64,000 bases of DNA, taken from Saprospiraceae bacterium (lineage in GTDB: Bacteria; Bacteroidota; Bacteroidia; Chitinophagales; Saprospiraceae). Shown here one piece after another: positions 7,175 through 57,576 of this stretch; positions within the stretch are counted from its first letter, which is position 1, and each line of letters starts with the position of its first letter. Below the pieces are notes generated by a model, which was given only the letters and a program-made list of their open reading frames with translations, did not search any database and was not told the DNA's origin. The position numbers were made by a program, and so were the translations under genes. The stretch is taken from positions 81,125 through 145,124 of the forward strand of contig JAHDGF010000005.1 in assembly GCA_020627785.1 (NCBI GenBank). The letters are read 5' to 3'.

Positions 7175-7633
7175 ATGAAACAAATAATTTATCTACTTGC
7201 CTTTGCTTTGTTATTTAGCTTTGTTGCTTGTAAGCAAGGGAGTGATGCTGCCAAGACTACAACTGAAGCTGCTGCTACAACAGCTCAGAAAGCTAAGACT
7301 GCAGTTGCTGATAAGACCACAAAAGCTAAGAATGCGGCACCAAAAACATCCGGAAATCCAGCCTTAGATAATCTTAGAAAGGAACAACGTCAGGTGAATA
7401 AGAAAATCACAAACCTGATGAATAATGCCAATAGAAAAAAATTGGTTTCGCAGAGAAATGAACTTAACAAAAAAATTAAAGCCACTCAGGATAATACTCA
7501 ACGCAAAACACTAGAGGCACAAAGAGCAAATCTTAATAAGCAGATAAACAGTATGGATAAAAAATCTGGACTGACAGATTTGCGAAAGCAAAAAGAAGCC
7601 ATTAGAAAAAAGATAGCTGCTGCTAAAAAGTAA
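7175..7633 (+). CDS. Small Ala/Lys-rich coiled-coil lipoprotein
   Basis: The 152-residue product starts with a lipoprotein signal peptide (MKQIIYLLAFALLFSFVAC), Cys19 being the likely lipidated residue. An Ala/Thr/Lys-rich linker follows (about 25-60). Residues 64-152 are a heptad-like helical region with repeated blocks such as LVSQRNELNKKIK and LEAQRANLNKQIN. No enzyme motif is seen. It is probably anchored in a membrane facing the periplasm or the surface, and could be a scaffold for the export machinery. That is inference from its place inside the polysaccharide locus. A copy of the 12-mer ATTTGCGAAAGC lies within its 3' end, encoding D-L-R-K. Confidence 0.75.
   Translation: MKQIIYLLAFALLFSFVACKQGSDAAKTTTEAAATTAQKAKTAVADKTTKAKNAAPKTSGNPALDNLRKEQRQVNKKITNLMNNANRKKLVSQRNELNKKIKATQDNTQRKTLEAQRANLNKQINSMDKKSGLTDLRKQKEAIRKKIAAAKK
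7578..7589 (+). repeat. 12-mer motif ATTTGCGAAAGC, copy 1
   Basis: Exact copy inside the lipoprotein gene, read in the GAT TTG CGA AAG codon phase. It is one of 11 exact copies in the window. Confidence 0.85.
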
Positions 7634-8866
7634 TTGTCTAAACCATTGAATATTCTTGTCCTTACATATTGGTCCTACAAGGATGGACTAATACAAACGT
7701 ACACTTTACCTTATTTAAGGCAGATGTCTTCAGTTTTGAGTGAGGATAGTAAAATTCATTTGGTCACCTTGGAAAAGGCACATTTACAATTAGAAGGCAA
7801 AGAGCGTAGAAAGATAGAATCAGATTTACAAAAGAAGAAAATCTTTTGGAATCCATATTCATATACTAAGTTTGGGTTATTGGCCATGCTTAAATGGGGT
7901 TTAACCATAATTTCTCTCTTTTGGAAGATTATAAGATATCGAGTGGATTATATTCATTGTTTTTGCACACCGCCAGGAATTGCAGCCAGTGTTCTTTCAA
8001 CAATTACAAGAACTCCCTTGGTCATTGATAGTTACGAGCCCCATGCAGAAGCGAGTCTCGAAAATGGAGATTGGTCTAAGGATAGTTTTCCTTTCAAATT
8101 TCTATTTGGTTTTGAAAAGTATATGAGTAAAAGGGCAGAGATAATCATCAGTGCTACTGAAGGTATGCGTGATTATGCGAAAGAGAAATACGATGCTACT
8201 TTTGATCGCTTTTATGTGAAGCCAGCCTGTGTTGATTTAGATTTATTTACTTCTGCAAATAAAAAGAAGCAAGAATATATTGATGAACTAAGTTTTGAGA
8301 ATAAGATTGTATGTGTTTATGCAGGAAAATTTGGAGGTATTTATCTAGATCAAGAAGTATTCGATTTCTTTAAGGTTGCACAGGATTTTTGGGGTGATCG
8401 ATTTAGAGTATTGTTATTGACAAATCAGAGCGATGATGCATTAAACGAATGGGCGAACAAAAGTGGCTTTGATATGAAAGCTTTAGAGAAACGTTTTGTT
8501 ATGCATAGTCAGGTTCCAGATTATTTAGGGGTAGGTGACTTTGGCATAACTCCAGTTAAACCCATCCCAACCAAACGATATTGTACACCCATAAAAAATG
8601 GAGAATATTGGGCGTTGGGATTACCAGTTGTAAGTACAGCAAATATATCTGATGATTCAGATATTATAGAGAATGAAAAAATTGGTTCCTTAATAAATGA
8701 ATTCTCAACTAACGAATATCAAAAGGTAGTTGAAGAAATAGATGATTTGTTAAAGAATAATACCCTTGAAAATCTGTATGAAAAGATTAGACCTGTAGCG
8801 GTTAAATACCGGTCATTTGATATATCTAAAAAGATTTATGCAGAAGTTTATGGTAATCAAAACTGA
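7634..8866 (+). CDS. Glycosyltransferase, GT4/GT-B type
   Basis: The 410-residue GT-B protein starts with TTG right after the lipoprotein stop. The N-terminal Rossmann half contains YIHCFCTPPGIAASVLS and VIDSYEPHAE. The C-terminal half begins near VCVYAGKFGG (about residue 225), followed by the donor-site region FGITPVKPIPTKRYCTPIKNGEY. There the usual E-x7-E of GT4 is replaced by a 'K-N-G-E-Y-W-A-L-G-L-P-V-V' version. It is expected to add one sugar of the repeat unit at the cytoplasmic face. It overlaps the next glycosyltransferase by one base. Donor and acceptor are unknown. Confidence 0.82.
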   Translation: MSKPLNILVLTYWSYKDGLIQTYTLPYLRQMSSVLSEDSKIHLVTLEKAHLQLEGKERRKIESDLQKKKIFWNPYSYTKFGLLAMLKWGLTIISLFWKIIRYRVDYIHCFCTPPGIAASVLSTITRTPLVIDSYEPHAEASLENGDWSKDSFPFKFLFGFEKYMSKRAEIIISATEGMRDYAKEKYDATFDRFYVKPACVDLDLFTSANKKKQEYIDELSFENKIVCVYAGKFGGIYLDQEVFDFFKVAQDFWGDRFRVLLLTNQSDDALNEWANKSGFDMKALEKRFVMHSQVPDYLGVGDFGITPVKPIPTKRYCTPIKNGEYWALGLPVVSTANISDDSDIIENEKIGSLINEFSTNEYQKVVEEIDDLLKNNTLENLYEKIRPVAVKYRSFDISKKIYAEVYGNQN

Positions 8867-9993
8867 TGAAGGATAAAAGAATTAAGGTTACTTATATAAT
8901 TTCCTACATTGATAAGTCGGTCGGTTTTGAATGGGTTGCTAGTAGACTAAATAGAGATAAGTTTGATCTCAAATTTATTTTACTTAATGATAAACCGTCC
9001 CACCTTGGCAAATTTTTGAAAGGTATTAATATACCTTTTGAAGAACTTCAATATCTAGGAAAGAAGAATATAATTCAAACTGCCTTTAGGGTTTGGAATA
9101 TTTTAAGAAAACAAAAACCAGATGTTATCCACACACATTTAGTAGATGCGGATTTCATTGGATTAACCGTCGGTAAATTCTTAGGCATCAAGAAGCGAGT
9201 GTACACTAGACATAATTCAAACATTCATAAAAAGTATCATAGTGGTGCTGAAAAATTTGACAGAATTGCAAATAAGTATAGTACGCATATCGCCTCGATT
9301 AGTAAGAACATAACAGAGATATTAGTGAATGAGGAAGGAGTATCACCTGAAAAGATTCGATTAGTATATCATGGATTTGAATTGGAGAAATTTGAAAATG
9401 TTCCGCAGAACCAAATAGATGAACTGAATTCTAAGTATAATGTAGCTGGTAGAAGACCAGTTATTGGTGTGATTTCTAGGTATATGCATTGGAAAGGTAT
9501 ACAACACATTATACCAGCATTCAAGAAAACACTTGAAAAATATCCCAATGCTCTATTAATGTTGGCCAACGCTGGAAAGGGTGATTATGCAAAAGAAATT
9601 GTTGAGCTCTTAAGTGATTTACCTTCTGATTCCTATGTAGAAATTGCGTTTGAACATAATTTATTTGCCCTGTATCATCTCTTTGATATTTTCGTTCACA
9701 TTCCTATCGATCCAGAAGTTGAAGCTTTTGGTCAAATTTATATTGAATCACTAGCTGCTGGAATACCTTCGGTTGTTACACTGTCCGGAATTGCGCGTGA
9801 AGTCATATCAGATAAAGAGAATGCTGTGGTCGTTGATTTTCAAAACTCGGAACAGATTGTAGATGGAATAGATCTCTTGCTAACGGATAAGGAACTCAGA
9901 GAAAAAATTGTATCTAATGGAATAAAATCTGTAAAGGAAAAATTCTCCTTAAAATCAATGATTGAAAATTTGGAATCTCTTTATGTCGAATAA
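8866..9993 (+). CDS. Glycosyltransferase family 4 protein
   Basis: This 375-residue GT-B enzyme has the N-terminal acceptor half (DVIHTHLVDADFIGLTVGK, then KRVYTRHNS). The C-terminal donor half starts at RPVIGVISRYMHWKGIQH near residue 197. The GT4 nucleotide-sugar signature is seen in E-A-F-G-Q-I-Y-I-E-S-L-A-A-G-I-P near 285-300 (E-x7-E). The start overlaps the preceding stop (TGATG), indicating coupled translation. It probably acts on the lipid-linked repeat unit. Its sugar specificity cannot be read from sequence. Confidence 0.9.
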   Translation: MKDKRIKVTYIISYIDKSVGFEWVASRLNRDKFDLKFILLNDKPSHLGKFLKGINIPFEELQYLGKKNIIQTAFRVWNILRKQKPDVIHTHLVDADFIGLTVGKFLGIKKRVYTRHNSNIHKKYHSGAEKFDRIANKYSTHIASISKNITEILVNEEGVSPEKIRLVYHGFELEKFENVPQNQIDELNSKYNVAGRRPVIGVISRYMHWKGIQHIIPAFKKTLEKYPNALLMLANAGKGDYAKEIVELLSDLPSDSYVEIAFEHNLFALYHLFDIFVHIPIDPEVEAFGQIYIESLAAGIPSVVTLSGIAREVISDKENAVVVDFQNSEQIVDGIDLLLTDKELREKIVSNGIKSVKEKFSLKSMIENLESLYVE

Positions 9994-13921: not shown

Positions 13922-15361
13922 ATGTTATTTAACTCAACAATATTTCTAGTTTTTTTTGCAGTAGTTGTCACACTCTACTATATTCTACCGACCAGATTTC
14001 GATGGATTTTATTATTGATAGGAAGTTATCTTTTTTATATGTCGTGGGAGCCGGCATTTATATTACTTATTTTATCCTCCACCATTGTTGATTATTTTGT
14101 TTCAATAAAGCTTCCAGAAACAGAAACGTCGAAAGGTAAGAAACGACTCTTATTTATAAGCTTGTTTTTTAATTTAGGACTTCTCTTTATTTTTAAGTAT
14201 TACAATTTTTTTACTGAAAATATTGAACTGTTAGCATCTAGCATTGGACTAAATTATCAGGCTTCAGTTTCAAGTTTACTCTTGCCTGTAGGAATTTCGT
14301 TTTATACCTTCCAAACAATTAGTTATACAATTGATGTTTTTCGTGGAGAGCTTAAACCTGAAAAACATTTTGGAAAATTTGCACTTTATGTAAGTTTTTT
14401 TCCTCAATTAGTAGCCGGTCCAATTGAGCGAGCTACTAATCTGCTTCCGCAAATTAATGGAATAAAAAAAAAGGTATTTCATGATGATCTACTTGCTGGT
14501 ATTCTTCAATTTGTTTTTGGTCTTTTTAAAAAAGTAGTAATAGCTGATTCTGCGGCTCTTTATGTGAATGCAATTTACAATAACCATCAATATCACGATG
14601 GCTCCACTTTTGTCCTTGCGTCCTTATTTTTTACGGTTCAAATTTATGGAGATTTCTCTGGTTATTCTGATATGGCCATTGGTGCTGCAAGGATGTTGGG
14701 TTTTAAACTAATGGACAATTTTCATTTGCCCTTCTTTTCAAAAAGTACTACTGAATTGTGGCGTAGATGGCATATAAGTCTAGGGTCATGGGCCAATGAC
14801 TATATGTTTAAGTCGTTTTCACCATATTGGGTACGTAGGTTTTCTAAAAAGGGAGTTCTAATAAGTTTGATCATTACCTTTACTTTGATTGGTATTTGGC
14901 ACGGAGGAAGGTGGACTTACATCTTGTTTGGTTTTATGCATGGCTTCATTCTAGGAGTTGAATTTTTGACCAAAAAAAGAAGAAAGAAAATTAAAAAGAA
15001 AATCGGGTCTTTCCTTTTTTCCTATTCAGGTTGGTTTATTACAATGCTCCTTTGGTTTATTAGTATGATTTTATTCCGCTCAGTATCTATGGAACAATTC
15101 TTCCATATTATGAATAAAATATTTTCAGCCTCAATCTTCAATTCTTTATTTATTCCAGACCTAGGGGTTATTGCAACGACCTTGTTTGGCGTTACAATAT
15201 TGTTCATTTTTGAATATTTTGTATTTAGGAAACGAAACTTTCTAGGATTGGTAAAAACATATAGCCAACCTACCTTAGCGCTTGTTACAGCTATGTTTAT
15301 TCTCGTTATTTCTATATTCGGCGTGTCTGAGGGAAGTCAATTTATCTATTTTCAATTTTAA
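13922..15361 (+). CDS. Membrane-bound O-acyltransferase (MBOAT, AlgI-like), copy 2
   Basis: A 479-residue polytopic MBOAT protein clearly paralogous to the copy at 1.9 kb. It shares the MLFNS N-terminus, GISFYTFQTISYTIDVF, FFPQLVAGPIERA, IYGDFSGYSDMAIG, TELWRRWHISLGSW and the catalytic-type His in IGIWHGGRWTY. The loop after WRRWHISL differs (ANDYMFKSFSPYW in place of FRDYLYIPLGG), so the two may handle different acyl groups or acceptors. Its stop overlaps the start of the following SGNH-like gene by one base (TAATG). It predicts O-acylation at a second site of the polysaccharide. No second acyl carrier protein is nearby, so its donor may be acetyl-CoA. Confidence 0.93.
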   Translation: MLFNSTIFLVFFAVVVTLYYILPTRFRWILLLIGSYLFYMSWEPAFILLILSSTIVDYFVSIKLPETETSKGKKRLLFISLFFNLGLLFIFKYYNFFTENIELLASSIGLNYQASVSSLLLPVGISFYTFQTISYTIDVFRGELKPEKHFGKFALYVSFFPQLVAGPIERATNLLPQINGIKKKVFHDDLLAGILQFVFGLFKKVVIADSAALYVNAIYNNHQYHDGSTFVLASLFFTVQIYGDFSGYSDMAIGAARMLGFKLMDNFHLPFFSKSTTELWRRWHISLGSWANDYMFKSFSPYWVRRFSKKGVLISLIITFTLIGIWHGGRWTYILFGFMHGFILGVEFLTKKRRKKIKKKIGSFLFSYSGWFITMLLWFISMILFRSVSMEQFFHIMNKIFSASIFNSLFIPDLGVIATTLFGVTILFIFEYFVFRKRNFLGLVKTYSQPTLALVTAMFILVISIFGVSEGSQFIYFQF

Positions 15362-20114: not shown

Positions 20115-20991
20115 TCTTTTTATTATCGGTGCTCAAAAAGCAGGGACAACCTCATTGAAGAATTACTTGGGTGATCATCCAGAAGTAATTACCCATCCGC
20201 ATACTGAAATGACTTTTTATGCGGATGAAAAAGAATTTAGTAAGGGATATGATTCTGCGTTCGTTAGATATTTTGGTGATCCAGAAACATTAAAAGGAGA
20301 AAAAATAATTGCGAAGAATGTTACAATTTCCTTTCGAGAGGAAACGCTAAAAAATTTGCGCAAGCATAACCCTTATTGTAAAATTGTCTTTGTACTAAGA
20401 GAGCCAATATCAAGAGCATATTCTGCCTATCAAATGGCCAAGAGAGGAGGGTGGATGCACGAGTCATTTGATTACGCCTTAAAAGCAGTTGATAAAAATA
20501 TTAAAGGGGAAAATGATAAATTCTATAGATTCATGCTTGATCTTGGTATCTATCATACACAGATTGAAACCTTACTAAAATATTATCCAAGAGAGCAGAT
20601 TAAATTTTTATTGTATGACGATCTTAAAAGTGATCCCGTCCGTACAACTCAACTTTTATATTCTTGGCTAAATGTAGATTCTTCTTATCTGCCTAATACT
20701 GAGCGATATAATCAAGGGGGAGAAGCTAAGTCTAAATTAATGGGAAGCCTAATTAAGTTTCTCAGAAATAATGGAAGTATTGTAAAGAATGGTATAAAGA
20801 ATATTTTTGGGGAGCGGAGCTTTATCCGCTTATCGCAAAATTTACAATCCCTTAATAAGACGAAGTCACCTGTGAAAAATGACGATATCGATGATAAGAT
20901 TTATGATTTCTTAAAAGAATTCTATTTCGAAAAGAATCAAGCTTGTTCACAGTACCTTGATCAAGATCTTAATCAACTTTGGTATGGTTAG
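20098..20991 (+). CDS. Sulfotransferase-fold protein 3 (heparan-sulfotransferase type)
   Basis: The product of about 297 residues begins MFRKPDLFIIGAQKAGTTSL. G-A-Q-K-A-G-T-T-S is the classical 5'-phosphosulfate loop of carbohydrate sulfotransferases. The 3'-phosphate block IVFVLREPISRAYSAYQM lies near residue 99, with the R...S spacing of that family. A TTG at 20089 in the same frame would add three residues, but ATG at 20098 is the better start. The first 17 bases overlap the preceding gene. The last 23 bases overlap, tail to tail, an opposite-strand membrane-protein gene. This is the clearest polysaccharide sulfotransferase in the locus. Confidence 0.92.
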   Translation: MFRKPDLFIIGAQKAGTTSLKNYLGDHPEVITHPHTEMTFYADEKEFSKGYDSAFVRYFGDPETLKGEKIIAKNVTISFREETLKNLRKHNPYCKIVFVLREPISRAYSAYQMAKRGGWMHESFDYALKAVDKNIKGENDKFYRFMLDLGIYHTQIETLLKYYPREQIKFLLYDDLKSDPVRTTQLLYSWLNVDSSYLPNTERYNQGGEAKSKLMGSLIKFLRNNGSIVKNGIKNIFGERSFIRLSQNLQSLNKTKSPVKNDDIDDKIYDFLKEFYFEKNQACSQYLDQDLNQLWYG

Positions 20992-22383: not shown

Positions 22384-24273
22384 ATGTGCAGAATTAACGG
22401 GATTAAATATTTTAATCAAAAGAAAGTCGACCAGACCCTACTTGAGTCCATGCGGGATTGTCTTTCTTATGGCGGTCCTGACTCTGCAAATATATACATA
22501 AACGAGAAGAAAGACTTGGGTCTTGCCCATCGGAGATTAGCAATCCTTGATTTGTCTGATGATGGTATTCAACCCATGCGCTATAAACACTGGGTGATTA
22601 TCTTCAACGGAGAGCTCTACAACTTTATGGATGTTAGAGTTGAATTAGAGGCTTTAGGGACAACTTTTAATACACAAACAGACACAGAGGTACTCTTGAA
22701 GGCCTTTGAAAGGTGGGGTCCAGATTCTATCAATAAATTTCATGGGATGTTTGCCTTTGTTATTTATGACGAACAAAAGGATAGTTTATTGTTCTGCCGT
22801 GATCGCGTAGGTGTTAAACCGCTTTTCCTTTATCGCAAGGATGGCACCTGTTTGTTTGCTTCTGAGTTAAAAGCCTTTCATCCCTATCCAAACTTTGATA
22901 AAACGATTAATAAAGATGCTGTTTCTCTTTATTTGCAACAAGGGTATATTCATTCACCGCATTGCATTTTTAAAAATGTTCGAAAACTTGGTGCGGGGAC
23001 TTATCTAGAAATCGATAAAGATGGAAATGAGAAAGAAACCACCTACTGGAAGCCAGGGACACATCTGCACGATGGGGTAGTTTGTAGAAATAAAAATGAG
23101 GAAGAGTTAAAGGAAGAATTGGAAGAACTTTTAGTAGAGAGTTTTAACCTAAGGATGGTGTCAGACGTTCCCGTAGGAATATTTTTAAGTGGTGGTGTTG
23201 ATTCTTCGCTTGTCGCTTCGATGCTGCAAAAAAGATCCAATCAACAACTAAAAACTTTCACCATCGGTTTTGATGATCCGTCCTACAATGAAGCTCCATT
23301 TGCGAAAGCAATAGCAGATCACATAGGCTCTGATCATCATGAGTTGACTGTGACGGATACAGATTTTAAAAAAGTAGTAAAAGATTTTGTAGACATCTAT
23401 GATGAGCCTTTCGGAGATAGTTCTGGTATCCCTACCTTTCTGCTTTCGCAAATGACAAGCCAGTATGTGAAAGTAAGTTTATCAGCAGATGGTGGAGATG
23501 AAATATTTGGAGGATATACCAAATATGAAATGGCCAAAAAGATTCATGGGATGCCTTCCTTTGCAAGGAAATTATTATCCCTCCCGCTTTCCTTGGTTAG
23601 CCCGGAACAGTTAAATAAAAATCGACTTTTAAAAGGATACACAAATGTTGGCATCAAAGTACATAAATTTAAGAATGCCATTCAGGCCGATGGTTTGGTT
23701 GATCTCTTTAATCGAAGTTCAGTATTCTTATCTGAAAAAGATCAATTAAAAATATTTTCACATTACCTCAATAGATGGAATGGTAGTTTGTGCCAAGATG
23801 ATTCTCGGATAATCGCACAGCTCGGATACATTGATATCCAAACTTACCTTGAAGGAGATATCATGACGAAAGTTGATCGTGCAACCATGCAACATGCATT
23901 GGAAGGTCGCGAACCACTTTTGGATCATAAGTTGATTGAATTTGGATTGAGATTGAAAGATGAATGGAAAATAAAAAATGGAAAGGCAAAATACCTGTTG
24001 CGACAGGTACTATATAAATACGTTCCTTCAGAATTGATTGATAGACCTAAGCAAGGGTTTGCAATCCCACTCCGAAGCTGGTTACTAAATGAGCTCTTAG
24101 ATGATTTGAAAGCAATGAAGGAAGACCAGCAATTCTTTAATTGTTTTGAATTGAATACATCGGAGATTTGTCAACAAATTAATGATTTTATCTCTCAGAA
24201 AAAATATCAAAATGAATATAACATTTGGTTCTTATTCGTTTTGCATAAATGGTATTTAAAGTGGATGGCTTAA
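22384..24273 (+). CDS. asnB: Asparagine synthetase B-type glutamine amidotransferase
   Basis: A 629-residue protein with the class II glutaminase domain (about 1-220) starting MCRINGI, so Cys2 becomes the N-terminal nucleophile after Met removal. The synthetase domain has the ATP-pyrophosphatase loop L-S-G-G-V-D-S-S near residue 263. Enzymes of this length amidate a carboxylate using glutamine nitrogen. In polysaccharide clusters AsnB homologues are often dedicated to amidating uronic acids rather than to making asparagine (compare WbpS-type proteins). Which applies here cannot be decided from sequence. Two exact copies of the 12-mer ATTTGCGAAAGC, in opposite orientation and different codon phase, lie inside this gene. 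Confidence 0.9.
   Translation: MCRINGIKYFNQKKVDQTLLESMRDCLSYGGPDSANIYINEKKDLGLAHRRLAILDLSDDGIQPMRYKHWVIIFNGELYNFMDVRVELEALGTTFNTQTDTEVLLKAFERWGPDSINKFHGMFAFVIYDEQKDSLLFCRDRVGVKPLFLYRKDGTCLFASELKAFHPYPNFDKTINKDAVSLYLQQGYIHSPHCIFKNVRKLGAGTYLEIDKDGNEKETTYWKPGTHLHDGVVCRNKNEEELKEELEELLVESFNLRMVSDVPVGIFLSGGVDSSLVASMLQKRSNQQLKTFTIGFDDPSYNEAPFAKAIADHIGSDHHELTVTDTDFKKVVKDFVDIYDEPFGDSSGIPTFLLSQMTSQYVKVSLSADGGDEIFGGYTKYEMAKKIHGMPSFARKLLSLPLSLVSPEQLNKNRLLKGYTNVGIKVHKFKNAIQADGLVDLFNRSSVFLSEKDQLKIFSHYLNRWNGSLCQDDSRIIAQLGYIDIQTYLEGDIMTKVDRATMQHALEGREPLLDHKLIEFGLRLKDEWKIKNGKAKYLLRQVLYKYVPSELIDRPKQGFAIPLRSWLLNELLDDLKAMKEDQQFFNCFELNTSEICQQINDFISQKKYQNEYNIWFLFVLHKWYLKWMA
23298..23309 (+). repeat. 12-mer motif ATTTGCGAAAGC, copy 2
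   Basis: Exact copy in the asnB-like gene, in the phase CCA TTT GCG AAA GCA. It encodes P-F-A-K-A, unlike the D/N-L-R-K phase of other copies. Confidence 0.85.
23442..23453 (-). repeat. 12-mer motif ATTTGCGAAAGC, copy 3 (reverse)
   Basis: Exact reverse-complement copy 133 bases after copy 2 in the same gene, in the phase CTG CTT TCG CAA ATG. Confidence 0.85.
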
Positions 24274-28104: not shown

Positions 28105-28985
28105 AAGTCCTAATTACTGGCGGTACTGGTTTTATTGGTTCGTATTTTTTACAGAACGATCATTCTAACGTTGAATGGATGTCTGTAAATTTGCGAAAGC
28201 AGAATCCAAATGAAATAAATTTCAATGAAGTTCAGTCAGTACTTCATCTAGCCGGGATGGCACATCGCATGGAGCAGGTTGACGAACAAGAATATTTCAA
28301 AGTGAATAGAGACCTGACTTTAGAATTAGCTAAGAATGCTAAGGCTTCCGGAGTAAAACATTTCATCTTTATGTCTACTGTAAAAGTTTTTGGGGATAAA
28401 AGTCCCACAGGTGGATTTAAGGAAACACATCGTCCCGTTCCGGAAGATGCGTATGGGGCCAGTAAATTTGAAGCTGAAAAATTACTTTGGGAATTAGAAG
28501 ATGAAAATTTTATAGTTAGTGTTATACGTCCTGCATTGGTGTACGGCCCAATGGTCAAAGGAAATCTCGATCGACTATTAAAACTAATTGATCGCGGAAC
28601 TACCTTGCCCTTCAAGTCAATTCCCAACAAGCGCAGCATGGTTTCTATACAGAACCTCCAAGCACTCATACACTTGCTCATCCAGAAGCCAACACAAGGA
28701 GTTTTTCACGCCACCGATAATCATCCAATCTCAACTTCAGAATTAGTAGAGTGGATGGCCGAAGGATTAGAGAAAAAGTCGAAACTCATTAAATTTCCTG
28801 GAGTCTTCAATTGGATTCTCAAAAAGATGAAACCACAACTTCATGTTCGTCTTTTTGGTTCATATCTGATTGATAGTACGGAAGGATATGATAGAATAAA
28901 TTTCAAACCTCCTTCTCATCCAAAGGATGGAATAATTGCCATGGCTAAATTCTATAAAGAAAATACAATTCAATCCAATGCTTAG
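28101..28985 (+). CDS. WbpV-like NAD-dependent epimerase/4-reductase
   Basis: This 294-residue SDR has the NAD turn GGTGFIGSYFL at residues 7-17, the LHLAGMAHRM block, the Tyr-x3-Lys pair in YGASKFEAEK (near 126-130) and VIRPALVYGPMVKGNL. LHLAGMAHR followed by P-x-A-Y-G-x-S-K-x-x-A-E is typical of the reductases that finish UDP-QuiNAc or UDP-FucNAc synthesis (WbpV, WbjF, Gne-like). The gene overlaps both neighbours and is followed by a WecA/WbpL-type transferase. The product of the 4,6-dehydratase encoded at 30 kb is its likely substrate. A 12-mer ATTTGCGAAAGC copy lies near its 5' end. Confidence 0.87.
   Translation: MKVLITGGTGFIGSYFLQNDHSNVEWMSVNLRKQNPNEINFNEVQSVLHLAGMAHRMEQVDEQEYFKVNRDLTLELAKNAKASGVKHFIFMSTVKVFGDKSPTGGFKETHRPVPEDAYGASKFEAEKLLWELEDENFIVSVIRPALVYGPMVKGNLDRLLKLIDRGTTLPFKSIPNKRSMVSIQNLQALIHLLIQKPTQGVFHATDNHPISTSELVEWMAEGLEKKSKLIKFPGVFNWILKKMKPQLHVRLFGSYLIDSTEGYDRINFKPPSHPKDGIIAMAKFYKENTIQSNA
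28189..28200 (+). repeat. 12-mer motif ATTTGCGAAAGC, copy 4
   Basis: Exact copy in the WbpV-like gene, in the phase AAT TTG CGA AAG (N-L-R-K). Confidence 0.85.
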
Positions 28986-34424: not shown

Positions 34425-35209
34425 TATATGAACTCGGCGACCTTTTTAGAATATTTTTTAAGAAGGAAAATAGCAAGAACTAACAACCCAATTGAGGCTG
34501 CCATGTTTTCTATAAATAGCGGTAAATAAAATTCATTGCCTTCAAGAAGACAGGCACGGGTATTAAGCAGGATTCCAACAAAAGGATTTAGATGAATCAT
34601 CCACTCATATTCCGTCAGATAAAAACTACCTGCAAAGAAAATACCAGAGACCCAAAAGCCGACAAGAATAACGATGGCCCATATGTGCTTGATGTCTTCA
34701 AAGATTGGGTTCAACAGACTGAGAATAATCACCACCGCCGTAGTCAATATAAACCAGTTCAATAATACCAGAGGGAAGAGTAAAAAATGTGAGCCAACAC
34801 TGACACCAAGAATTATGACGGTACCAAAATAAGCGACAAGATTAAACATCAAGCCCATAAATATAGAGGTCATATGAGAGAGATATAAATCAATCCAATT
34901 GAATTGTATGTTCTCTATTAGGTACTTTTTATTGGTGAGAATATTAGCTCCAGTTTTTGTAGCTTCTGAAAAAGCGATCCACATGATTAAGCCGCTGAAT
35001 AAAAAAGGAACAAAATTCTCCTCATCTTTTTCTAAGACCACCGTAAATACAAAATAGTAAATGGCAATTTGCGAAAGCGGATTAATCAATGCCCATATCA
35101 GACCCAGCTTGTCATTGTAGTATCTTTTCTTGAAGTCTACCTGAGCCAATTTCCATATTCGCTCAAATCTATTATTTTCCGGTATGTGTTTTAAAACTGC
35201 GTTGAGCAC
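34424..35209 (-). CDS. Polysaccharide ABC transporter permease (Wzm-like, ABC-2 type)
   Basis: A 261-residue protein with six membrane segments. The ABC-2 exporter signature is near the N-terminus (VDFKKRYYNDKLGLIWALINPL), and the last segments contain MIHLNPFVGILLNTRACLLEG, the usual N-P region. Such permeases export undecaprenyl-linked or lipid-linked polysaccharide. It lies directly upstream of its ATPase. A copy of the 12-mer, in reverse relative to the coding direction, is at 35067-35078. Confidence 0.92.
   Translation of the reverse strand: MLNAVLKHIPENNRFERIWKLAQVDFKKRYYNDKLGLIWALINPLSQIAIYYFVFTVVLEKDEENFVPFLFSGLIMWIAFSEATKTGANILTNKKYLIENIQFNWIDLYLSHMTSIFMGLMFNLVAYFGTVIILGVSVGSHFLLFPLVLLNWFILTTAVVIILSLLNPIFEDIKHIWAIVILVGFWVSGIFFAGSFYLTEYEWMIHLNPFVGILLNTRACLLEGNEFYLPLFIENMAASIGLLVLAIFLLKKYSKKVAEFI
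35067..35078 (+). repeat. 12-mer motif ATTTGCGAAAGC, copy 5
   Basis: Exact copy on the plus strand inside the minus-strand permease gene. The coding strand reads CTT TCG CAA ATT (L-S-Q-I). Confidence 0.85.
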
Positions 35210-36413: not shown

Positions 36414-37088
36414 TTGTTAAAAGATTTCTTATTCCTTGGAGGATTCTACGTCAATAGTTCCTACCTCTATTTAAAAGCTAAGTCCATTTATACTGGCGAA
36501 CCGCACATCTGCGTCACCAAAGATACGACTCTTTGCTTGGAAGGCTTCCAACGATCAGGAAATGGTTATTGTGAAGCCATTCTTAAGTTTAAAAATGAAG
36601 GACTAGAGATTACGCATCATGCGCACGCTTTCGCAAATATTAAACGATCCATAAAATGGAAGGTGCCTATTCTTGTACTTATCAGAAATCCGATAGATTG
36701 CATAGCAAGTCTTATCACTTTTGATGAGCGACTATCAGATGCTGTGGCAATGAAAAATTACACCAATTATTATAAGGGCGTTGAAAAATTAAAAGATCAA
36801 TTGTTACTTGTAGATTTTTTAGAATTGACCAAAAATCCTGACGCCATCATCGGAAAAGTGAATGATAAGTATTCGTTGAGCCTAAACAAACTAAACTTCA
36901 CAGAAGATGAGAAGCAGCAATACATGAAATATAAAAAAGCCAATTACGATAAGGCCATTCTTGCTTCTCCGTTTCCAGACGATGCTAAAAAACCAAAGAC
37001 AGATAAACATAGGACCCGCTTATCAAAGAATCCAAAGATGAAGGAAGCCTTGAAGTTATATAATAGACTTTCTAAAAACATGGACTAG
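36414..37088 (+). CDS. Sulfotransferase-fold protein 4 (short)
   Basis: The 224-residue protein starts with TTG at 36414, 45 bases from the open frame of the divergent GT4 gene. TLCLEGFQRSGNGYCEAIL near residue 43 resembles a 5'-phosphosulfate loop, with R-S-G-N-G in place of K-x-G-T-T. VPILVLIRNPIDCIASLITF near 84 is a good 3'-phosphate block. It is shorter than the other three sulfotransferase-like proteins and the first loop is weaker, so activity is less certain. It closes the polysaccharide locus. Confidence 0.72.
   Translation: MLKDFLFLGGFYVNSSYLYLKAKSIYTGEPHICVTKDTTLCLEGFQRSGNGYCEAILKFKNEGLEITHHAHAFANIKRSIKWKVPILVLIRNPIDCIASLITFDERLSDAVAMKNYTNYYKGVEKLKDQLLLVDFLELTKNPDAIIGKVNDKYSLSLNKLNFTEDEKQQYMKYKKANYDKAILASPFPDDAKKPKTDKHRTRLSKNPKMKEALKLYNRLSKNMD
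36627..36638 (-). repeat. 12-mer motif ATTTGCGAAAGC, copy 6 (reverse)
   Basis: Exact reverse copy in the short sulfotransferase gene, in the phase GCT TTC GCA AAT (A-F-A-N). Confidence 0.85.
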
Positions 37089-37578: not shown

Positions 37579-39972
37579 TCAAAAATCAAAAACAAAATTT
37601 AAAACTGGGATGAAATCCCCACCATCAAAATTCCGGAAACCTAATTCGTTGGTCTCCGCATTATAAGAAACTCCTTTTAAATTTTTCTTGTTGGTCAGAT
37701 TCTGAACGTCAAGACTAATGCTTCCACTCAACCTTTTTCTATTAAAGCGGTAGGCAATTCTTGAATCCACCCGAGAGTATGGCGTAACCTGTGATTTCCA
37801 AAAGGAATTAGCCAATGGGACAAACTGTTTTTCTATGGCAGATAAAACTGGATCATGTGGTGTGTATCGGTAGCCTCCATTGTACAATATTCTTGCACCA
37901 ATCTGCAAGGCTCCCCCTTTTTTGAATTCAAACTCTCTGCCGAGCGTATAGCTTGAAACCCATTTTGTCGAATAGCGGGTAGGATGTTTTTCTCCTGTAT
38001 TTGAAATTGAGTTGGACTCAAAAAAGGAGCCTGTCAATAAAAAGTACATTTTGTTAGAGAAGAATTTTTCAATCGCTAAATCCAACCCATAATTTTCGCC
38101 TTTACCTTCGCTAACAGCTGCAAAAGCTGGAAAGTCCGCCTGATTATTCAACATCCAGTAACCATCTCCAAGGTCATCTAGTCTAACCGGTACTTTATTC
38201 AATCGTTGATAGTAGATTTCTGCATTAACCTTAATTGAACTTTTGCTCACAAAAGTATAGCTCGCAATGAAGTGCCAAGCCTTCATAAAGGGTAGATCAT
38301 AATTTGGTCTGATGATGACATCATTCTCTTTTTCTTCTTCATAGAAGTAGGCAGCCAATGGGAGCATCTGGCTATGTTGACCAATGGCAAGGCCAAAGTT
38401 ATTCTGTTGGTTAAGGACATACTTTAATGAGAATCTTGGATCAATGGCACCGGTTCCATTTAATCCTAATATCATCGAATGTAAACCTGCATTTATATTT
38501 AGTTTTGGACTTGGACTATATTGCATCAGACCATAGGCCTGACCAGTGAGCGTTAACCCTCCTCCATTTAAATCAAGATCTGCGTTCATAAGATTTACAT
38601 CTGAACTACTATTTCTAGCTCTGCTTTCCTTGAAAAATCGATACTGGATTCCATGACCCATGGTTCCAAGTTTCATTTTCCATTGTGGAGTATACTCCTT
38701 CCAATAAGTCCAAGAAGTAGATAGTCTGTTATCTGTATATTCCTCTGTGTTATATCTGTATCTTACGTTATTTACGTCCAAAGTATCATAAGTTCTACCC
38801 ACAAATCCAGACATTAAACTGGTGGTGTTTTTTAGATATGATTTGTCATCATAGATCTTAGTGTAGGTAACTCCAACTGCACCCATGCTGCTATCATTGA
38901 ATCGATCTTCCCAATGATTTGAAAAACCTTCTTCTCGTTCGGCTGCTGGTTTTGGAGAATAATGTTCCTCAGAAAATCCACCGATTCCAAAAACGGTCCA
39001 TTTTACGGTTGGGTCTTTTCCTTCGAATGCTAGGTTAAAAGATAAATCTTGAAAGTTATTACTTACACGTTCGCCAATCAATTCAAAACCAAAGGAATTG
39101 AGTAAGCCGAGTGTAGAGTAGCGGTAGTTGACTAAGTAAGAAGACTTTGATTTTTTTATTGGTCCCTCCGTCGCAAAATCTAAACCTAGGAGTCCTATTT
39201 TCACTCGATGCTGCCTTTCTAATTTGTTCCCTTTTCTGAAGTGTACATCAAAGGCTCCGGATAATGCATTGCCAAATTCAGCAGGCATTCCTCCGGTATA
39301 AAAATCAGAACGACTCAATAATTGTGCACTGAAAATAGTAATCCCACCTCCAGAGGTTCCCGGTCTTGCAAAGTGATTGGGATTAGGAATATCAATTCCC
39401 TCCAATCGCCAAAGAATTCCTACACTTGAATTTCCTCTTACTATGATGTCATTTTCAGTATCATTAGATCCTTGCTGAACACCTGGGTAGGAGAGTGCCA
39501 TCCGACCCATATCATTTACTCCAGCCGGCATCCGTTCTGTCTCTTCAACTGAAAAGGATCGAGCGCTCACAGTCGCTAAGTTATTCATCGGCGCATTGGT
39601 ATTCCCATCGGCAATGATATCAACTCCAGCCATCATAATTCCTTCCTGCAGACTTATAGATAATTCAGAATTTCTCTGCGAACTAACAATAATACCTTCT
39701 GTGATAAATTCTTGATATCCAATGTAGGTCACTTTAAATTGCTGACGTCCGACCGGAACATTCTCTACTATAAACCTTCCGTCTACATCCGTATTCGAAC
39801 CAATATTCTCTGCGCCAACTAATTGCACGTATGCGCCAATAATTGGTATTCCTGATTCTCTTTCGGTAACAATGCCTTGAATTTTTTGTGTACTTACTTG
39901 TGCTTTAGAAATATTAATTTGCGAAAGCAAGAAAAAGAGGAGGAGGGCAATATTAGTCTTTAAATCTACCAT
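37579..39972 (-). CDS. TonB-dependent outer-membrane receptor with carboxypeptidase-like N-terminal domain
   Basis: The 797-residue protein has a signal peptide ending near residue 24 (NISKAQ) and a carboxypeptidase-regulatory-like beta-sandwich (KIQGIVTERESGIPIIGAYV...). A plug follows (ERMPAGVNDMGRMALSYPGV and IIVRGNSSVGILWRLEGI), then a beta-barrel ending in an aromatic residue (LNFVFDF). Such receptors import glycans, siderophores or other large ligands. No SusD partner is next to it. The start codon ATG is at 39972. It lies downstream of the beta-helix/cytochrome pair on the same strand with a 51-base gap, so co-transcription is possible. Confidence 0.9.
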   Translation of the reverse strand: MVDLKTNIALLLFFLLSQINISKAQVSTQKIQGIVTERESGIPIIGAYVQLVGAENIGSNTDVDGRFIVENVPVGRQQFKVTYIGYQEFITEGIIVSSQRNSELSISLQEGIMMAGVDIIADGNTNAPMNNLATVSARSFSVEETERMPAGVNDMGRMALSYPGVQQGSNDTENDIIVRGNSSVGILWRLEGIDIPNPNHFARPGTSGGGITIFSAQLLSRSDFYTGGMPAEFGNALSGAFDVHFRKGNKLERQHRVKIGLLGLDFATEGPIKKSKSSYLVNYRYSTLGLLNSFGFELIGERVSNNFQDLSFNLAFEGKDPTVKWTVFGIGGFSEEHYSPKPAAEREEGFSNHWEDRFNDSSMGAVGVTYTKIYDDKSYLKNTTSLMSGFVGRTYDTLDVNNVRYRYNTEEYTDNRLSTSWTYWKEYTPQWKMKLGTMGHGIQYRFFKESRARNSSSDVNLMNADLDLNGGGLTLTGQAYGLMQYSPSPKLNINAGLHSMILGLNGTGAIDPRFSLKYVLNQQNNFGLAIGQHSQMLPLAAYFYEEEKENDVIIRPNYDLPFMKAWHFIASYTFVSKSSIKVNAEIYYQRLNKVPVRLDDLGDGYWMLNNQADFPAFAAVSEGKGENYGLDLAIEKFFSNKMYFLLTGSFFESNSISNTGEKHPTRYSTKWVSSYTLGREFEFKKGGALQIGARILYNGGYRYTPHDPVLSAIEKQFVPLANSFWKSQVTPYSRVDSRIAYRFNRKRLSGSISLDVQNLTNKKNLKGVSYNAETNELGFRNFDGGDFIPVLNFVFDF
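39917..39928 (+). repeat. 12-mer motif ATTTGCGAAAGC, copy 7
   Basis: Exact plus-strand copy within the signal-peptide codons of the minus-strand TonB receptor. The coding strand reads CTT TCG CAA ATT (L-S-Q-I), the same phase as copy 5. Confidence 0.85.
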
Positions 39973-48231: not shown

Positions 48232-50580
48232 ATGAAATTTTATTTCACTCTTTCACTGATACTTATAACAAACTTTTGTTTGGGACAAACCCCTCAACCA
48301 TGTGGGCCTATTCCTGAAATGACCTCTTTCTGCTCAGAGGCCTGTGTTATATGTGACATTGATGGTTATACAGGGGTGAATGATTTAACAGCGCAAGGAC
48401 AAGGATTCGGTGAGTTTTGTACCACCCAGTACAATAACATGCAATATATATCCTTCATTGCAGGAAGTGTCGACCTAACCATTCAGGTCGATGTATCCAA
48501 TTGTATTGGTGTAATTCCAAGCCTAGAAGTTGGATTTTTCCAAACAGAAGATTGTCAAACCTTTACACCAATTACGGATTGTGATACAGATATTCAATCT
48601 GGCGAAAATCAAGTTTTTTCAAATGAGTTTCCTTTAACGATAGGGCAGCATTATTACTTAGTGATTGATGGTTCTGCAGGTGCAAATTGTAATTGGACTT
48701 TTTCAGTATTGGAAGGAACAACGGAAGTTCTACCTTTATCTACTTCAGGGGTTATGACTTTTCCAAGAGTCTCTTGTCCAGGAAATTCGATTACATTTTC
48801 GACTACTGGCGAAGTGGGCGCAGCTTTGTTCTTTTGGACCATCGATGGAATGTTTCAACCGGACATTGATCAAGAAGTTGAATTTGTATTTGAAGATCCA
48901 GGAAAATATGAGATCTGCGTAACGGCCGCTAACGTTTGCGATGAAGCTCCTCCAACTTGCGACTCTATTTTAATTAGAGAAGTCGGAAATACAATTTTAG
49001 AAGAAATACTTTGTGATGGAACCTGTATTGAAGTGAATGGAACAGATTATTGTGATAGTGGCTCTTTTCAAGAATCTATAGAAGTCTTACCTGGTTGTGA
49101 TAGCATTATAAATATATTTATCGAAGTACTTCCTCAAGCAGAAGCAATGATTGATGTATGGATTTGTAATGATCAAAGTTTCAGTGTTGGCGACAACACC
49201 TATACGGATACCGGTAATTATTTGGATACCATACTTACTACAATGGACTGTGATAGTTTGGTCTTTCTTGATTTACTTGCCATAGAATGTGAAATTTCTG
49301 GAACGGCTAATTCTATTCCAGTTATTTGCCATGGAACCTCAACAGGTACCCTTATCTTTTCAGTTGATCAAGGCACACCACCTTTGACCTATATTTATAC
49401 CAATATTGAGGATAGCAGTATCAATGGTACAGGCACAACCAATCTATTAACGAACAATGAAATTCCAGGAATACCTGTTGGAATTTATCAAATTTATATT
49501 GAAGATAATTTTGGGAATGATTTTGTTGTCTTGCAGCCAGTCACAGAACCATCTCCAATGGAAATTGAATTAATTCCCTCTGAGGTGGGGGAATTCAATT
49601 TAAGCTGCAATTCAAGTTACGGTATGGTTGGGAGTGATGGATTTCTTATTGCCGAATGTTTAGGAGGTGTACCGCCTTATAGTTACGAATGGAGTGATGG
49701 ACAAACTCAGATGATGGCAGAAAATTTAACAGCACAAGAATATTCTGTAACAGTAACAGATTCTTCAGGTTGTCCACTTATTAGTTCATTTATCTTAACT
49801 GCTCCTCCTTCTATTAATCCAGATGTCGCTTTTAATGATCCTACCTGTGAAGGTTTTGAAACAGGCGAAATCTTTTTGTCTTCAATAGAAGGTGGTACCG
49901 CTCCATATCTATACTCTTTATCAGCGGAAGGTTTTGGGAGTGATACTTTGTTTGACAATTTACTAGAAGGAGATTATACCTTTTTTATTCAGGATGCAAA
50001 TGGATGCGTGGATTCGGTTAGCTCGACATTGGTAGCCCCAGATATTCCAGTGGTAAGTTTTGCTGAGGATGTTACAATTTTCTTAGGTAATGACACCATA
50101 CTTTATCCCATTCTAAATGATACAGATCTTACTCAGATTGGTTGGACGGAAGTTGAGTTTTTAGATTGTGGCGATTGCTTAGAGCCGACTGCAATGCCAG
50201 TCAATACAACGGAGTTTCAAGTTGAGGTTACTTCTGTGGATGGTTGTATCGCTTTCGCAAATATAACAGTCGAAGTAATTAAAAGACGACGTGTTTATGT
50301 ACCTAATATTTTCACCCCAGAGTCATTTGATGTTAACAATCGGTTAACCGTATTTGGAGGTCCTGAAGTTCGGTCCATCAATGATTTTTCTGTTTATGAT
50401 CGTTGGGGAAATCTGATGTATAACGCAGAAAACTTCGCACCCAATGATTTAGACGTTGGCTGGGATGGTTGGTTTAGAGGCCAGCGAGTGAATCCATCTG
50501 TATTTACTTGGATCGGCGAGATAGAATACATTGATGATTTTGTAGAAACGAAAGTAGGTAGTATTACTTTGATGAGATAA
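48232..50580 (+). CDS. Secreted multidomain protein with gliding-motility-type (type B) sorting domain
   Basis: The 782-residue protein has a signal peptide (to LGQ, about residue 19) and a Cys-rich N-terminal part (PCGPIPEMTSFCSEACVICD). PKD-like and SprB-like repeats follow (GGVPPYSYEWSDGQTQ...YSVTVTDSSGC; GGTAPYLYSLSAEGF). The terminal CHU_C-type domain starts RVYVPNIFTPESFDVNNRL and ends with VGSITLMR. Such proteins are exported by type IX secretion and shown on the surface for adhesion or motility. A copy of the 12-mer lies near its 3' end and another just after the stop codon, pointing toward each other. Confidence 0.9.
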   Translation: MKFYFTLSLILITNFCLGQTPQPCGPIPEMTSFCSEACVICDIDGYTGVNDLTAQGQGFGEFCTTQYNNMQYISFIAGSVDLTIQVDVSNCIGVIPSLEVGFFQTEDCQTFTPITDCDTDIQSGENQVFSNEFPLTIGQHYYLVIDGSAGANCNWTFSVLEGTTEVLPLSTSGVMTFPRVSCPGNSITFSTTGEVGAALFFWTIDGMFQPDIDQEVEFVFEDPGKYEICVTAANVCDEAPPTCDSILIREVGNTILEEILCDGTCIEVNGTDYCDSGSFQESIEVLPGCDSIINIFIEVLPQAEAMIDVWICNDQSFSVGDNTYTDTGNYLDTILTTMDCDSLVFLDLLAIECEISGTANSIPVICHGTSTGTLIFSVDQGTPPLTYIYTNIEDSSINGTGTTNLLTNNEIPGIPVGIYQIYIEDNFGNDFVVLQPVTEPSPMEIELIPSEVGEFNLSCNSSYGMVGSDGFLIAECLGGVPPYSYEWSDGQTQMMAENLTAQEYSVTVTDSSGCPLISSFILTAPPSINPDVAFNDPTCEGFETGEIFLSSIEGGTAPYLYSLSAEGFGSDTLFDNLLEGDYTFFIQDANGCVDSVSSTLVAPDIPVVSFAEDVTIFLGNDTILYPILNDTDLTQIGWTEVEFLDCGDCLEPTAMPVNTTEFQVEVTSVDGCIAFANITVEVIKRRRVYVPNIFTPESFDVNNRLTVFGGPEVRSINDFSVYDRWGNLMYNAENFAPNDLDVGWDGWFRGQRVNPSVFTWIGEIEYIDDFVETKVGSITLMR
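50251..50262 (-). repeat. 12-mer motif ATTTGCGAAAGC, copy 8 (reverse)
   Basis: Exact reverse copy in the 3' part of the gliding-type gene, in the phase GCT TTC GCA AAT (A-F-A-N). Confidence 0.85.
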
Positions 50581-50583
50581 AAA

Positions 50584-50595
50584 ATTTGCGAAAGC
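50584..50595 (+). repeat. 12-mer motif ATTTGCGAAAGC, copy 9 (intergenic)
   Basis: Exact copy between the stop of the gliding-type gene and the GNAT pseudogene. Being non-coding, it shows that the motif is not a protein-coding constraint. Confidence 0.85.
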
Positions 50596-51746: not shown

Positions 51747-52102
51747 ATGCCCCAAACTGAAATACTATAATAGGCGGAGTACAATTTTTTATCAGTCTTC
51801 ACAAACACATATGTATATAATGGAAGGACCGAAAAGAAGTACACTTTAAAGGACCACAGAGTGGTCCCACTTCATTAGTCAAAATGAACATATCAGTTTT
51901 CGACCCTAGGTGGGTCGCATATTTTGTTCTCCAAGCAAATGATATCTATTGAAAAATACATATCATAAAATTATTCAAATGTGCTTCAGCGACTTATATA
52001 TCTCAAGAAATAAATATGAAAATAAAAAAGACATCCATAGGGGTAAGTGTCAATTTTCCTGTCTTATAATCAAAGGGTGTTGAAAATTATTCAAAAAAAA
52101 TA

Positions 52103-52132
52103 AACCTGCTCAAACGTGAGTGGGTTTTTTTT
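52103..52132. terminator. Terminator-like hairpin in repeat unit 3
   Basis: Same sequence as unit 2: a ten-base stem with loop AACG and a T-run. Confidence 0.7.
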
Positions 52133-52462
52133 ATGCCCCAAACTGAGTTATCAGAAACCACAGTACGTTATTAAAATAATCAACTCTCATTGATCTCAGT
52201 AGACTGTAGAGGACCACAGAGTGGACCCACTTCATTAGTCAAAATGAACATATCAGTTTAGACCCCAGCGGGGTCGCATATTTTGTTCTCCAAGTAAATG
52301 ATACCTATTGAAAAATACATATCATAAAAGTATTCAAATGTGTTTCAGAGACTTATATATCTCAAGAAATAAATATGAAAATAACAAAGACAATTCATAG
52401 GGGAATGTGTCAATTTTCCTGTCTTATAATCAAAGGGTGTTGAAAATTATTCAAAAAAAATA

Positions 52463-52492
52463 AACCTGCTCAAAAGTGAGTAGGTTTTTTTT
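52463..52492. terminator. Terminator-like hairpin in repeat unit 4
   Basis: Same sequence as unit 1: loop AAAG, followed by a T-run. It lies about 110 bases after the 3' end of the minus-strand desaturase gene. Confidence 0.7.
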
Positions 52493-52603
52493 ATGCCCCT
52501 ACCTCTCTTCAGATGTAGTTTAAATAAATATACCCAGCTCTCTTTTGAACTAGGCATATTTATAAGTTGTCAATCGACAACACAGAAGACCACTTCTTAA
52601 TTT

Positions 52604-54356: not shown

Positions 54357-54634
54357 AACTATGGGCTGGTTGAGCTAAATGTTTGACAAATAGGTAAACC
54401 ATCTTCATCCAAGTTCACTTATTGTAAAATAAATTAGGGCGTGCTTGCGCAAATGCAATTTTCTGTAAACAAAAAATGAGCTTCATCTGGGGTATTGATG
54501 AAGGGTCAACTTAGTTGTTGAAATTGGCGATTAGAATTATGGTAATAGTTGTTAATTCTATCTTAAGATCGTTAAGTAAGGCCAAGATAAATCTGTGGCC
54601 ACGGAATATGGTGCTTCGAAAAAATAAAGTATGA

Positions 54635-56360: not shown

Positions 56361-56363
56361 AAA

Positions 56364-56984
56364 TTAATATTGGTGCTTTCCTCTATTCCATCCACTTTTT
56401 CCTAGTAGATTATTCCCATCTTCTGCTGCTGGTTCTTCTAGTTTGGTTCCCATAGAATCATTCCATCTATTCAGGTATCCAAAAAGTGCAGTTACCCCTA
56501 GAATTTCAACTATTTCTCCATCTTCCCAGTGCTTTCGCAAATTTTCAGCTATTTCATCAGTAACTGCATTTGGAATGGTTGAAGCGGCTATGGCAAAATC
56601 AAATACTGCACGTTCCGCATCAGAAAAAGCATCATAGGTTTTGTATTCCCAAATGTGCTGAAGTTTATCTTCCTCAGATCCATATCTTACAGCAGCTCTT
56701 ATAGCATGTGCTTCACAATATCTGCATCCAGCGGTCATTGACGAAAGGTAAGCGAGTTGTCTCTTTAATGCACTGGTTACTCTTCCTTTATTTTCCATAA
56801 CCGCCTTATTCATTTCAAGAAAGGCCTCCGCGATTCTAGGGCGATGCATCATTGTAAAGAGACTATTTGGTGTAAAGCCTAAAGTCTCTTCGTAAAAATT
56901 GGCCATCTCTTCAGCCTTTTTTGAAGAATTTTTATCTAGCGGAAAAACAAGTGGTCTTTTCATATTTTCAATTCGATTTGTCAC
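56364..56984 (-). CDS. AhpD/carboxymuconolactone decarboxylase-like protein
   Basis: The 206-residue protein has the redox motif C-x-x-C-x-x-H (Cys87, Cys90, His93 in GCRYCEAHAIRAA) and the helices of the alkylhydroperoxidase D family. Members reduce peroxides or take part in thiol disulfide exchange. Many are annotated only by the fold. It is the first gene of a pair with the deiminase. A 12-mer copy at 56531-56542 encodes N-L-R-K here. Confidence 0.88.
   Translation of the reverse strand: MTNRIENMKRPLVFPLDKNSSKKAEEMANFYEETLGFTPNSLFTMMHRPRIAEAFLEMNKAVMENKGRVTSALKRQLAYLSSMTAGCRYCEAHAIRAAVRYGSEEDKLQHIWEYKTYDAFSDAERAVFDFAIAASTIPNAVTDEIAENLRKHWEDGEIVEILGVTALFGYLNRWNDSMGTKLEEPAAEDGNNLLGKSGWNRGKHQY
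56531..56542 (-). repeat. 12-mer motif ATTTGCGAAAGC, copy 10 (reverse)
   Basis: Exact copy on the minus strand in the AhpD-like gene, in the coding phase AAT TTG CGA AAG (N-L-R-K). Confidence 0.85.
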
Positions 56985-57060
56985 AAAGTAACAAGATTAG
57001 TTATTACTATATTTAATTTTTGCCCGATCAGTTCTAAAAGAACAAAATAAATTAAGAGGA

Positions 57061-57576
57061 ATGATAATTCTAGTCTCTGGAAGTATTCGCAAGGATTCTA
57101 TAAATAGTGCTTTTATTCAATTGATTTCTAATCGACTAAAGGAAAAAGACCATGAGATTTTAAATCTTAGAGACTATCCAATGTTTGATCCAGATTTGGA
57201 AGGAGAATCAGTTCCAAAAGTAATTACAGATTTGCGAAAGCGTGTGAATGAATCAAAAACACTAATAATTTCTACTCCTGAATATCTACATAATATCCCA
57301 TCAACTCTAAAAAGCTTCCTTGAATGGCTTAATGGTCTTCCAAATTTGAATCAAATTGAAGTTTTTCCCTTCGTGCTAGCACCAGTGGAGCCAAGAGGTG
57401 AAAAAGCACTAAAAGCATTAATATTTAGTCTAATGGCCTTAGGATTTAAGGTGTCTCCAAGTATGTTAATCCATCATACAGAACTAACAATTTCGAAAGA
57501 ATTAAATGAAATTATAGGTCTTTCTAAGGATTTGGAAGAGCAACTATATGAATTAATTTCAAATATAATTAACTGA
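57061..57576 (+). CDS. NADPH-dependent FMN reductase
   Basis: The 171-residue flavodoxin-like protein has the FMN phosphate loop S-G-S-I-R-K-D-S-I-N-S at residues 6-16 and the family motif S-T-P-E-Y-L-H-N-I-P-S-T-L-K near 85-100. These enzymes reduce FMN or quinones and azo dyes using NADPH. It starts 76 bases from the divergent AhpD-like gene, so shared control is possible. A copy of the 12-mer is in its middle. Confidence 0.92.
   Translation: MIILVSGSIRKDSINSAFIQLISNRLKEKDHEILNLRDYPMFDPDLEGESVPKVITDLRKRVNESKTLIISTPEYLHNIPSTLKSFLEWLNGLPNLNQIEVFPFVLAPVEPRGEKALKALIFSLMALGFKVSPSMLIHHTELTISKELNEIIGLSKDLEEQLYELISNIIN
57230..57241 (+). repeat. 12-mer motif ATTTGCGAAAGC, copy 11
   Basis: Exact plus-strand copy in the FMN reductase gene, in the phase GAT TTG CGA AAG (D-L-R-K). 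Confidence 0.85.

Follow-up and report, generated by a model that had tools for sequence, protein, structure and literature searches.

The closest described systems are the DNA uptake sequences (DUS) of Neisseriaceae and the uptake signal sequences (USS) of Pasteurellaceae. These signals occur in hundreds to thousands of dispersed copies, at about one per kb where they are densest and often inside genes, show no replication-strand bias, originate by mutation and form dialects within one family. The same traits recur in a motif from a stretch of 64,000 nucleotides (the window) of the genome of a Saprospiraceae bacterium (G000; 4.69 Mb in 81 contigs), where a preliminary description had pointed to a 12-mer, ATTTGCGAAAGC, as the repeated unit. 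This 12-mer is one dialect of a genome-wide family of short sequences predicted to form small hairpins when the DNA is single-stranded, in which a T-tract is followed by a stem of two or three base pairs around a GNAA loop. Unlike in DUS and USS, the letters of the stem change if pairing is kept, so that the shape is conserved and there is no fixed linear word.

The repetition of the 12-mer is genuine, exceeds chance and extends outside the window. Its eleven exact copies in the window, at the coordinates and on the strands first listed, stand against a mean of 0.01 and a maximum of 1 in 100 dinucleotide shuffles. Genome-wide there are 310 exact copies (173 and 137 by contig strand) and none of the reversed word, and the word is therefore neither limited to the window nor a product of chance. 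In the 464 kb of G000 that were read, 48 copies contrast with 0.08 expected under a fourth-order Markov model. The DNA read from relatives, referred to by genome number, amounted to 591.6 kb of G030, 385.7 kb of G157, 200 kb each of G005, G002 and G034, 74 kb of G158, and 43 kb of G164 and G184 together. Reversed words, Markov models, pairing tables and an orthologue comparison served as controls in place of a synonymous-codon shuffle.

Taken by itself, G000 resembles a genome with a word containing one free base. In its 464 kb the 12-mer belongs to ATTTGCGNAAGC, the listed copies having A (48), C (10), T (7) or G (6) as their eighth base, and ATTTGCCGAAAGG is present in 10 further copies, 7 of them followed by C. 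These variants raised the suspicion of a hairpin, GC-GNAA-GC or GCC-GAAA-GGC. The bases outside the 12-mer had been described as not conserved, which does not hold for the next base, a G or A in 43 of the 48 exact copies examined. The unit seen in the relatives consists of a T-tract and then X C (GNAA) G X', where X pairs with X', and its letters vary between and within genomes: TTTT-GC-GCAA-GC and TTTT-CC-GAAA-GG in G030, ATTT-GC-GGAA-GC in G005, the same form and ATTT-AC-GGAA-GT in G002, and TT-GGC-GAAA-GCC in G034. When X is tabulated against X' in G030, all Watson-Crick cells are enriched (G-C 217, C-G 181, A-T 37, T-A 30), the 12 non-pairing cells holding 6 to 18 each, and all four pairs are found likewise in G157. 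This enrichment means that base pairing, and not sequence alone, is conserved.

Essentially a single class of loop is enriched, with a single closing pair and a T-tract upstream of the stem. GNGA loops stay near background except in G158, GNYA and ANAA loops on G-C stems are mildly over-represented in G000 and G005, and the six-base loops GGTTTA and GGCAAC occur 19 times each against 0.6 expected (G030 and G157 combined). A version with a five-base loop, ATTTGC-CTTGA-GC, was also observed, with 10 copies against 0.2 expected in G005 (L093-L102) and further copies in G000. Counted over the seven fixed positions, perfect and one-mismatch copies number 465 and 937 in G030, 291 and 617 in G157, and 102 and 388 in G000.

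Small DNA hairpins such as d(GCGAAGC) and d(GCGAAAGC), with a GNA or GNNA loop and at least two G-C pairs, are unusually stable and nuclease-resistant (PMC4686876). The remark that the 12-mer ends in GCGAAAGC, and thus in such a mini-hairpin, has proved to be the key one, since the stem bases covary in relatives. The elements described here share the GNNA loop on a stem whose complementary pairs number two or more by the pairing tables, and would belong to this class by predicted folding with small energies: a general DNA model assigns -0.5 kcal/mol to the two G-C forms that were tried and -2.3 kcal/mol to the three-bp form, and does not fold the C-G and A-T forms, although special loop terms may be missing from it. 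Unlike the mini-hairpins, which are known as oligonucleotides, the genomic elements are enriched in GNAA and not in three-base GNA loops, which speaks for a specific reader and not just for stability.

The copies in the window are listed below with their gene context, based on open reading frames (ORFs) called mechanically (minimum length 90 or 100 aa, overlapping frames discarded, no curation):

7578..7589, + strand: exact ATTTGCGAAAGC, sense in ORF 7175-7633
23298..23309, + strand: exact word, sense in the asparagine-synthase-like ORF 22384-24273
23442..23453, - strand: exact word, antisense in the same asparagine-synthase-like ORF 22384-24273
28189..28200, + strand: exact word, sense in ORF 28101-28985
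35067..35078, + strand: exact word, antisense in ORF 34424-35209
36627..36638, - strand: exact word, antisense in ORF 36414-37088
39917..39928, + strand: exact word, antisense near the start of ORF 37579-39972; no hairpin at the aligned place in G002
50251..50262, - strand: exact word, antisense in ORF 48232-50580
50584..50595, + strand: exact word, intergenic, directly past the stop at 50580
56531..56542, - strand: exact word, sense in ORF 56364-56984 (PF02627 family)
57230..57241, + strand: exact word, sense in ORF 57061-57576
4781..4792, - strand: variant ATTTGCGGAAGC
14443..14454, - strand: variant ATTTGCGGAAGC
20354..20365, + strand: variant ATTTGCGCAAGC
54443..54454, - strand: variant ATTTGCGCAAGC

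The exact copies thus divide into 5 sense, 5 antisense and 1 intergenic. Parts of the window had been reported as empty, which is correct for the exact word only, given the four variants with GCAA or GGAA loops. Both strands and all three codon phases are used, in agreement with the earlier view that the pattern acts at the DNA level, with no single reading strand favoured as its carrier; the DNA read from G030, G157 and G000 likewise has all three phases on both strands.

The distribution of the motif was followed with TTTGCGNAAGC in 199 genomes of the family, G000 included. The relatives are probably Saprospiraceae: of the 120 listed homologues of one window protein, seven rows name an organism, four of them this family and the other three Bacteroidota, Bacteroidia and Flavobacteriaceae. 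At least 100 copies are found in 29 of the 199 genomes and more than 400 in 8, the richest being G157 (1454), G030 (1202), G158 (941) and G000 (689), followed by G164 (616), G184 (550), G005 (492) and G064 (478), with reversed controls of 0-10 over these eight. Some species of the genus of G000 are nearly devoid of the motif (G003 and G004 are motif-poor), and G004 has 13 copies against 6 of the reversed control. Base composition is ruled out as the cause, G158 combining 57.6% GC (in the 74 kb read) with its 941 copies and a reversed control of 4. The density of two-bp hairpins per kb is 0.79 in G030, 0.75 in G157 and 0.22 in G000.

The broader word TTTSCGNAAGS, which admits some non-pairing words, occurs 2310 times in G157 (30 reversed) and 2145 times in G030 (46 reversed), and reaches a maximum of 132 (control 48) in 23 genomes from other families of the order. 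Among 296 genomes sampled from the phylum, the highest ratios noted outside the family were 78/11 in G368 and 95/14 in G484, compared with 721/32 in G000 and 384/48 in G032 within it. Together with G433 (f53; 65/12), G368 and G484 (f64) show a mild excess, perhaps a weaker or older version of the motif. In its very high copy number and lineage specificity the motif is reminiscent of HIP1 of cyanobacteria (GCGATCGC), a palindrome linked to methyltransferases (PMC4390886); unlike HIP1, it is not a palindrome, and its loop is asymmetric.

Most two-bp hairpins lie within ORFs (421 of 465 in G030, 270 of 291 in G157). Noncoding copies are fewer than expected in these two genomes (44 against 65.8 and 21 against 38.1) and in excess in G000 (22 against 8.3). 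The sense to antisense ratio is 168:253 in G030, 100:170 in G157, 35:45 in G000 and 10:29 in G005, whereas words two mismatches away are close to 1:1. The antisense excess may reflect selection against hairpins with a U-tract in mRNA, or codon constraints. Leading and lagging strands, assigned for sites with a local GC skew above 0.04 (404 of 465, 263 of 291, 58 of 102 and 29 of 40 in G030, G157, G000 and G005), are used equally, at 204:200, 130:133, 32:26 and 16:13, respectively. Spacing is approximately random, with coefficients of variation of 1.06 in G030 and 1.01 in G157. A replication or segregation signal, the latter among the functions first suggested, is rejected by this absence of strand bias.

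The origin of the copies was traced by comparing G030 with its sister species G157 over 52,188 aligned columns (75.7% identity) containing 48 G030 hairpins; this is a single species pair, and the G157 side includes ten loci picked by their similarity to G030. Conservation at orthologous sites, proposed at the outset as a check, is evident: 28 of the 48 hairpins are complete at the same place in G157, while 20 occur only in G030 and 26 only in G157. The nine defining positions are kept in 11.3% of all aligned 10-mers and in 16.3% of composition-matched ones, giving P values of about 5e-15 and 5e-11 for the 28 of 48, and the flanks of the hairpins show the overall average identity. Only 1 of the 46 one-sided sites involves an indel, and several are three-bp hairpins in the other species. 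The copies thus arise by substitution, with which further alignments concur save two gapped ones (L049/L112 and L045/L097), and a mobile or copied element is rejected on the same grounds.

Stem letters are identical at all 28 shared sites (17 G-C, 9 C-G, 2 T-A), the loop base differing in 3. Because no stem letter has switched there, compensatory change is known between sites and between species, and not within one site. The copy at 56531 of the window is kept as a hairpin in G005, G002 and G001, with the loops GGAA, GTAA and GCAA, and is absent from the motif-poor G003 and G004, without indels. Its loop base falls on a silent codon position, and protein constraint may therefore contribute to its conservation.

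The explanation tentatively favoured, although at somewhat less than even likelihood, is that the hairpin family serves as a self-DNA tag, recognised by its hairpin form on single strands in the course of natural transformation. A stem of only two or three pairs can matter only on a single strand. The hairpin would form in single-stranded DNA, the relevant strands being those that enter through ComEC, and a putative reader protein would prefer tagged strands for uptake, protection or RecA loading. Copies would pile up if tagged fragments were taken up and recombined more often, a drive that has been proposed for the uptake sequences of Haemophilus and Neisseria. Behind this reading stand the equal use of strands and replication halves, the origin by point changes, the tolerance within proteins, the species dialects and the collapse of abundance within a genus. 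ComEC is present in 70 of 71 family members tested, a set of 33 high-count and 38 low-count genomes hand-chosen from the 199. Among Bacteroidota, natural competence is known in Riemerella anatipestifer, where it involves ComEC, DprA, ComF, RecA and proteins of unknown function (PMC8459023). Taken together, these points lead to the proposal of a tag on transforming single strands. An uptake signal, one of the options named initially, thus remains the first choice, and the original interpretation as a whole is supported in part.

Several observations qualify this reading. Among the genes tested in the 71 genomes, none separates motif-rich from motif-poor members and none is a candidate for the reader; the winged helix of DprA was rejected in this role, with no match in G157 and G005. 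PilT (TIGR01420) is above its cut-off in none of the 71, with four matches below it at 160-178 bits, other pilus genes not having been searched. Unlike in DUS and USS, one-mismatch copies outnumber perfect ones, and the two densest genomes, G030 and G157, do not favour noncoding DNA for their sites, while G000 has an excess there. The Neisseria receptor prefers double-stranded DNA (PMC12061091), and no account of natural transformation in Saprospiraceae was found in the open-licence literature, which leaves most subscription work outside. A strict uptake word read by a pilus receptor is rejected by the PilT result and the covariation, and the feature is kept apart from DUS and USS since it fails on the linear word, on PilT and on the ratio of perfect to near copies. 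A more specific claim, which is possible but more doubtful, is that a self-DNA mark exists here as a hairpin shape, written into genes by substitution with a density that reaches about one per kb, read only when single-stranded, and used to discriminate kin from foreign DNA in pilus-free Bacteroidota. Within the same literature, and with the same restriction, neither an earlier report of a dispersed, covarying DNA hairpin nor one of over-represented uptake sequences in Bacteroidetes was found, and PMC5217627, on spaced motifs, makes no mention of Bacteroidetes or Saprospir-.

A recombination or repair signal similar to Chi, at whose hairpin a helicase-nuclease or RecA loader would stall in resected strands so that recombination starts, appears rather unlikely. 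The dispersal and density of the motif fit such a role, breaks yield single strands of both polarities, and Chi is itself short, dispersed and possibly read on single strands. However, Chi of Escherichia coli has a leading/lagging bias, which is absent here and sets aside the ordinary Chi-type signal suggested early on, and Chi is a linear word that would not covary as these stems do. The near absence of the motif from G004 would also be odd for a core repair signal.

Improbable as well is a nick or transfer signal, where an HUH-type enzyme would cut beside the hairpin so that pieces of the chromosome are exported or moved, and the tag would spread with the travelling pieces. Repetitive extragenic palindromic (REP) elements with their associated tyrosine transposases (RAYT, or TnpA-REP) are comparable, being single-strand hairpins in many copies per genome, with a conserved 5' flank. 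REPs measure 20-40 bp, are extragenic and are tied to a domesticated transposase (PMC3733652, PMC8266576), whereas the present elements span about 12 bp, are mostly genic and are made by substitution. Transposases of the IS200/IS605 type recognise single-strand secondary structures (PMC6006769), but their Y1 family, PF01797, although matched in 147 of the 199 genomes, has 0 matches in the motif-rich G005, G032 and G066 (other HUH families not having been searched) and also in G016, and the PF01797 matches listed include neither G158 nor G164. A REP/RAYT system is rejected by this lack of the transposase from several motif-rich genomes, and an HUH-type signal is further opposed by sites that are not insertions and by the missing lagging-strand bias.

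It is quite unlikely that the hairpins are a mutational by-product, written by a lineage-specific replication or repair error and read by nothing. The substitution origin and the strong differences in counts within one genus would agree with it, but not the near-uniformity of loop class and closing pair together with the T-tract before them, nor the retention of 28 of 48 hairpins at an overall identity of 75.7%, which their flanks share. The least probable explanation, an RNA-level element in which a GNRA-type hairpin after a U-tract would act in transcript processing or binding, could draw on GNAA falling in the RNA GNRA loop class and on a slight G-T excess interpretable as wobble pairs (18 against 6.7 in G030, 15 against 4.6 in G157), but C-T, T-T and A-G cells are raised in G030 too (15/7.8, 15/7.9 and 11/4.7), GNGA loops stay near background outside G158, and a sense-strand function is rejected by the antisense excess, not seen in two-mismatch neighbours.

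Besides the hairpins, other features were observed in the window and its relatives. Positions 1897-33727 carry matches to DltB, glycosyltransferase, asparagine-synthase-like and PseB-like families and form a probable cell-surface polysaccharide gene cluster; a contig scan with asparagine synthase gave 2 distant loci. At 51211-52506 lies a noncoding tandem array with up to 4 copies of units about 360-386 bp apart, short pieces of which match scattered places in the genus relatives G001-G005, so that it is part of a dispersed repeat family. An open frame of at least 2068 aa at 57796-63999, in GC-richer DNA without the exact word, runs off the window and possibly encodes a giant surface protein. 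Protein matches in G000 include type IX secretion system (T9SS) and SusC/RagA-type proteins, which place it in the Bacteroidota. A G030 repeat of about 60 bp (L084, 2236-2297), without the hairpin word, has more than 30 matches across G157, and in G034 (L103-L112) the further enriched words TGTTTGGAGG and GAGCATGTTT suggest more dispersed motifs.

The known uptake signals of Neisseriaceae and Pasteurellaceae are linear words, in Neisseria read mainly on double strands. A dispersed signal kept by pairing would imply a reader of the shape of single-stranded DNA, a step at which kin recognition is seldom placed, in bacteria apparently without the usual pilus machinery. The motif would provide a genomic marker of those family members between which gene exchange is likely, and would place the stable DNA mini-hairpins, long known as such, in a natural context.

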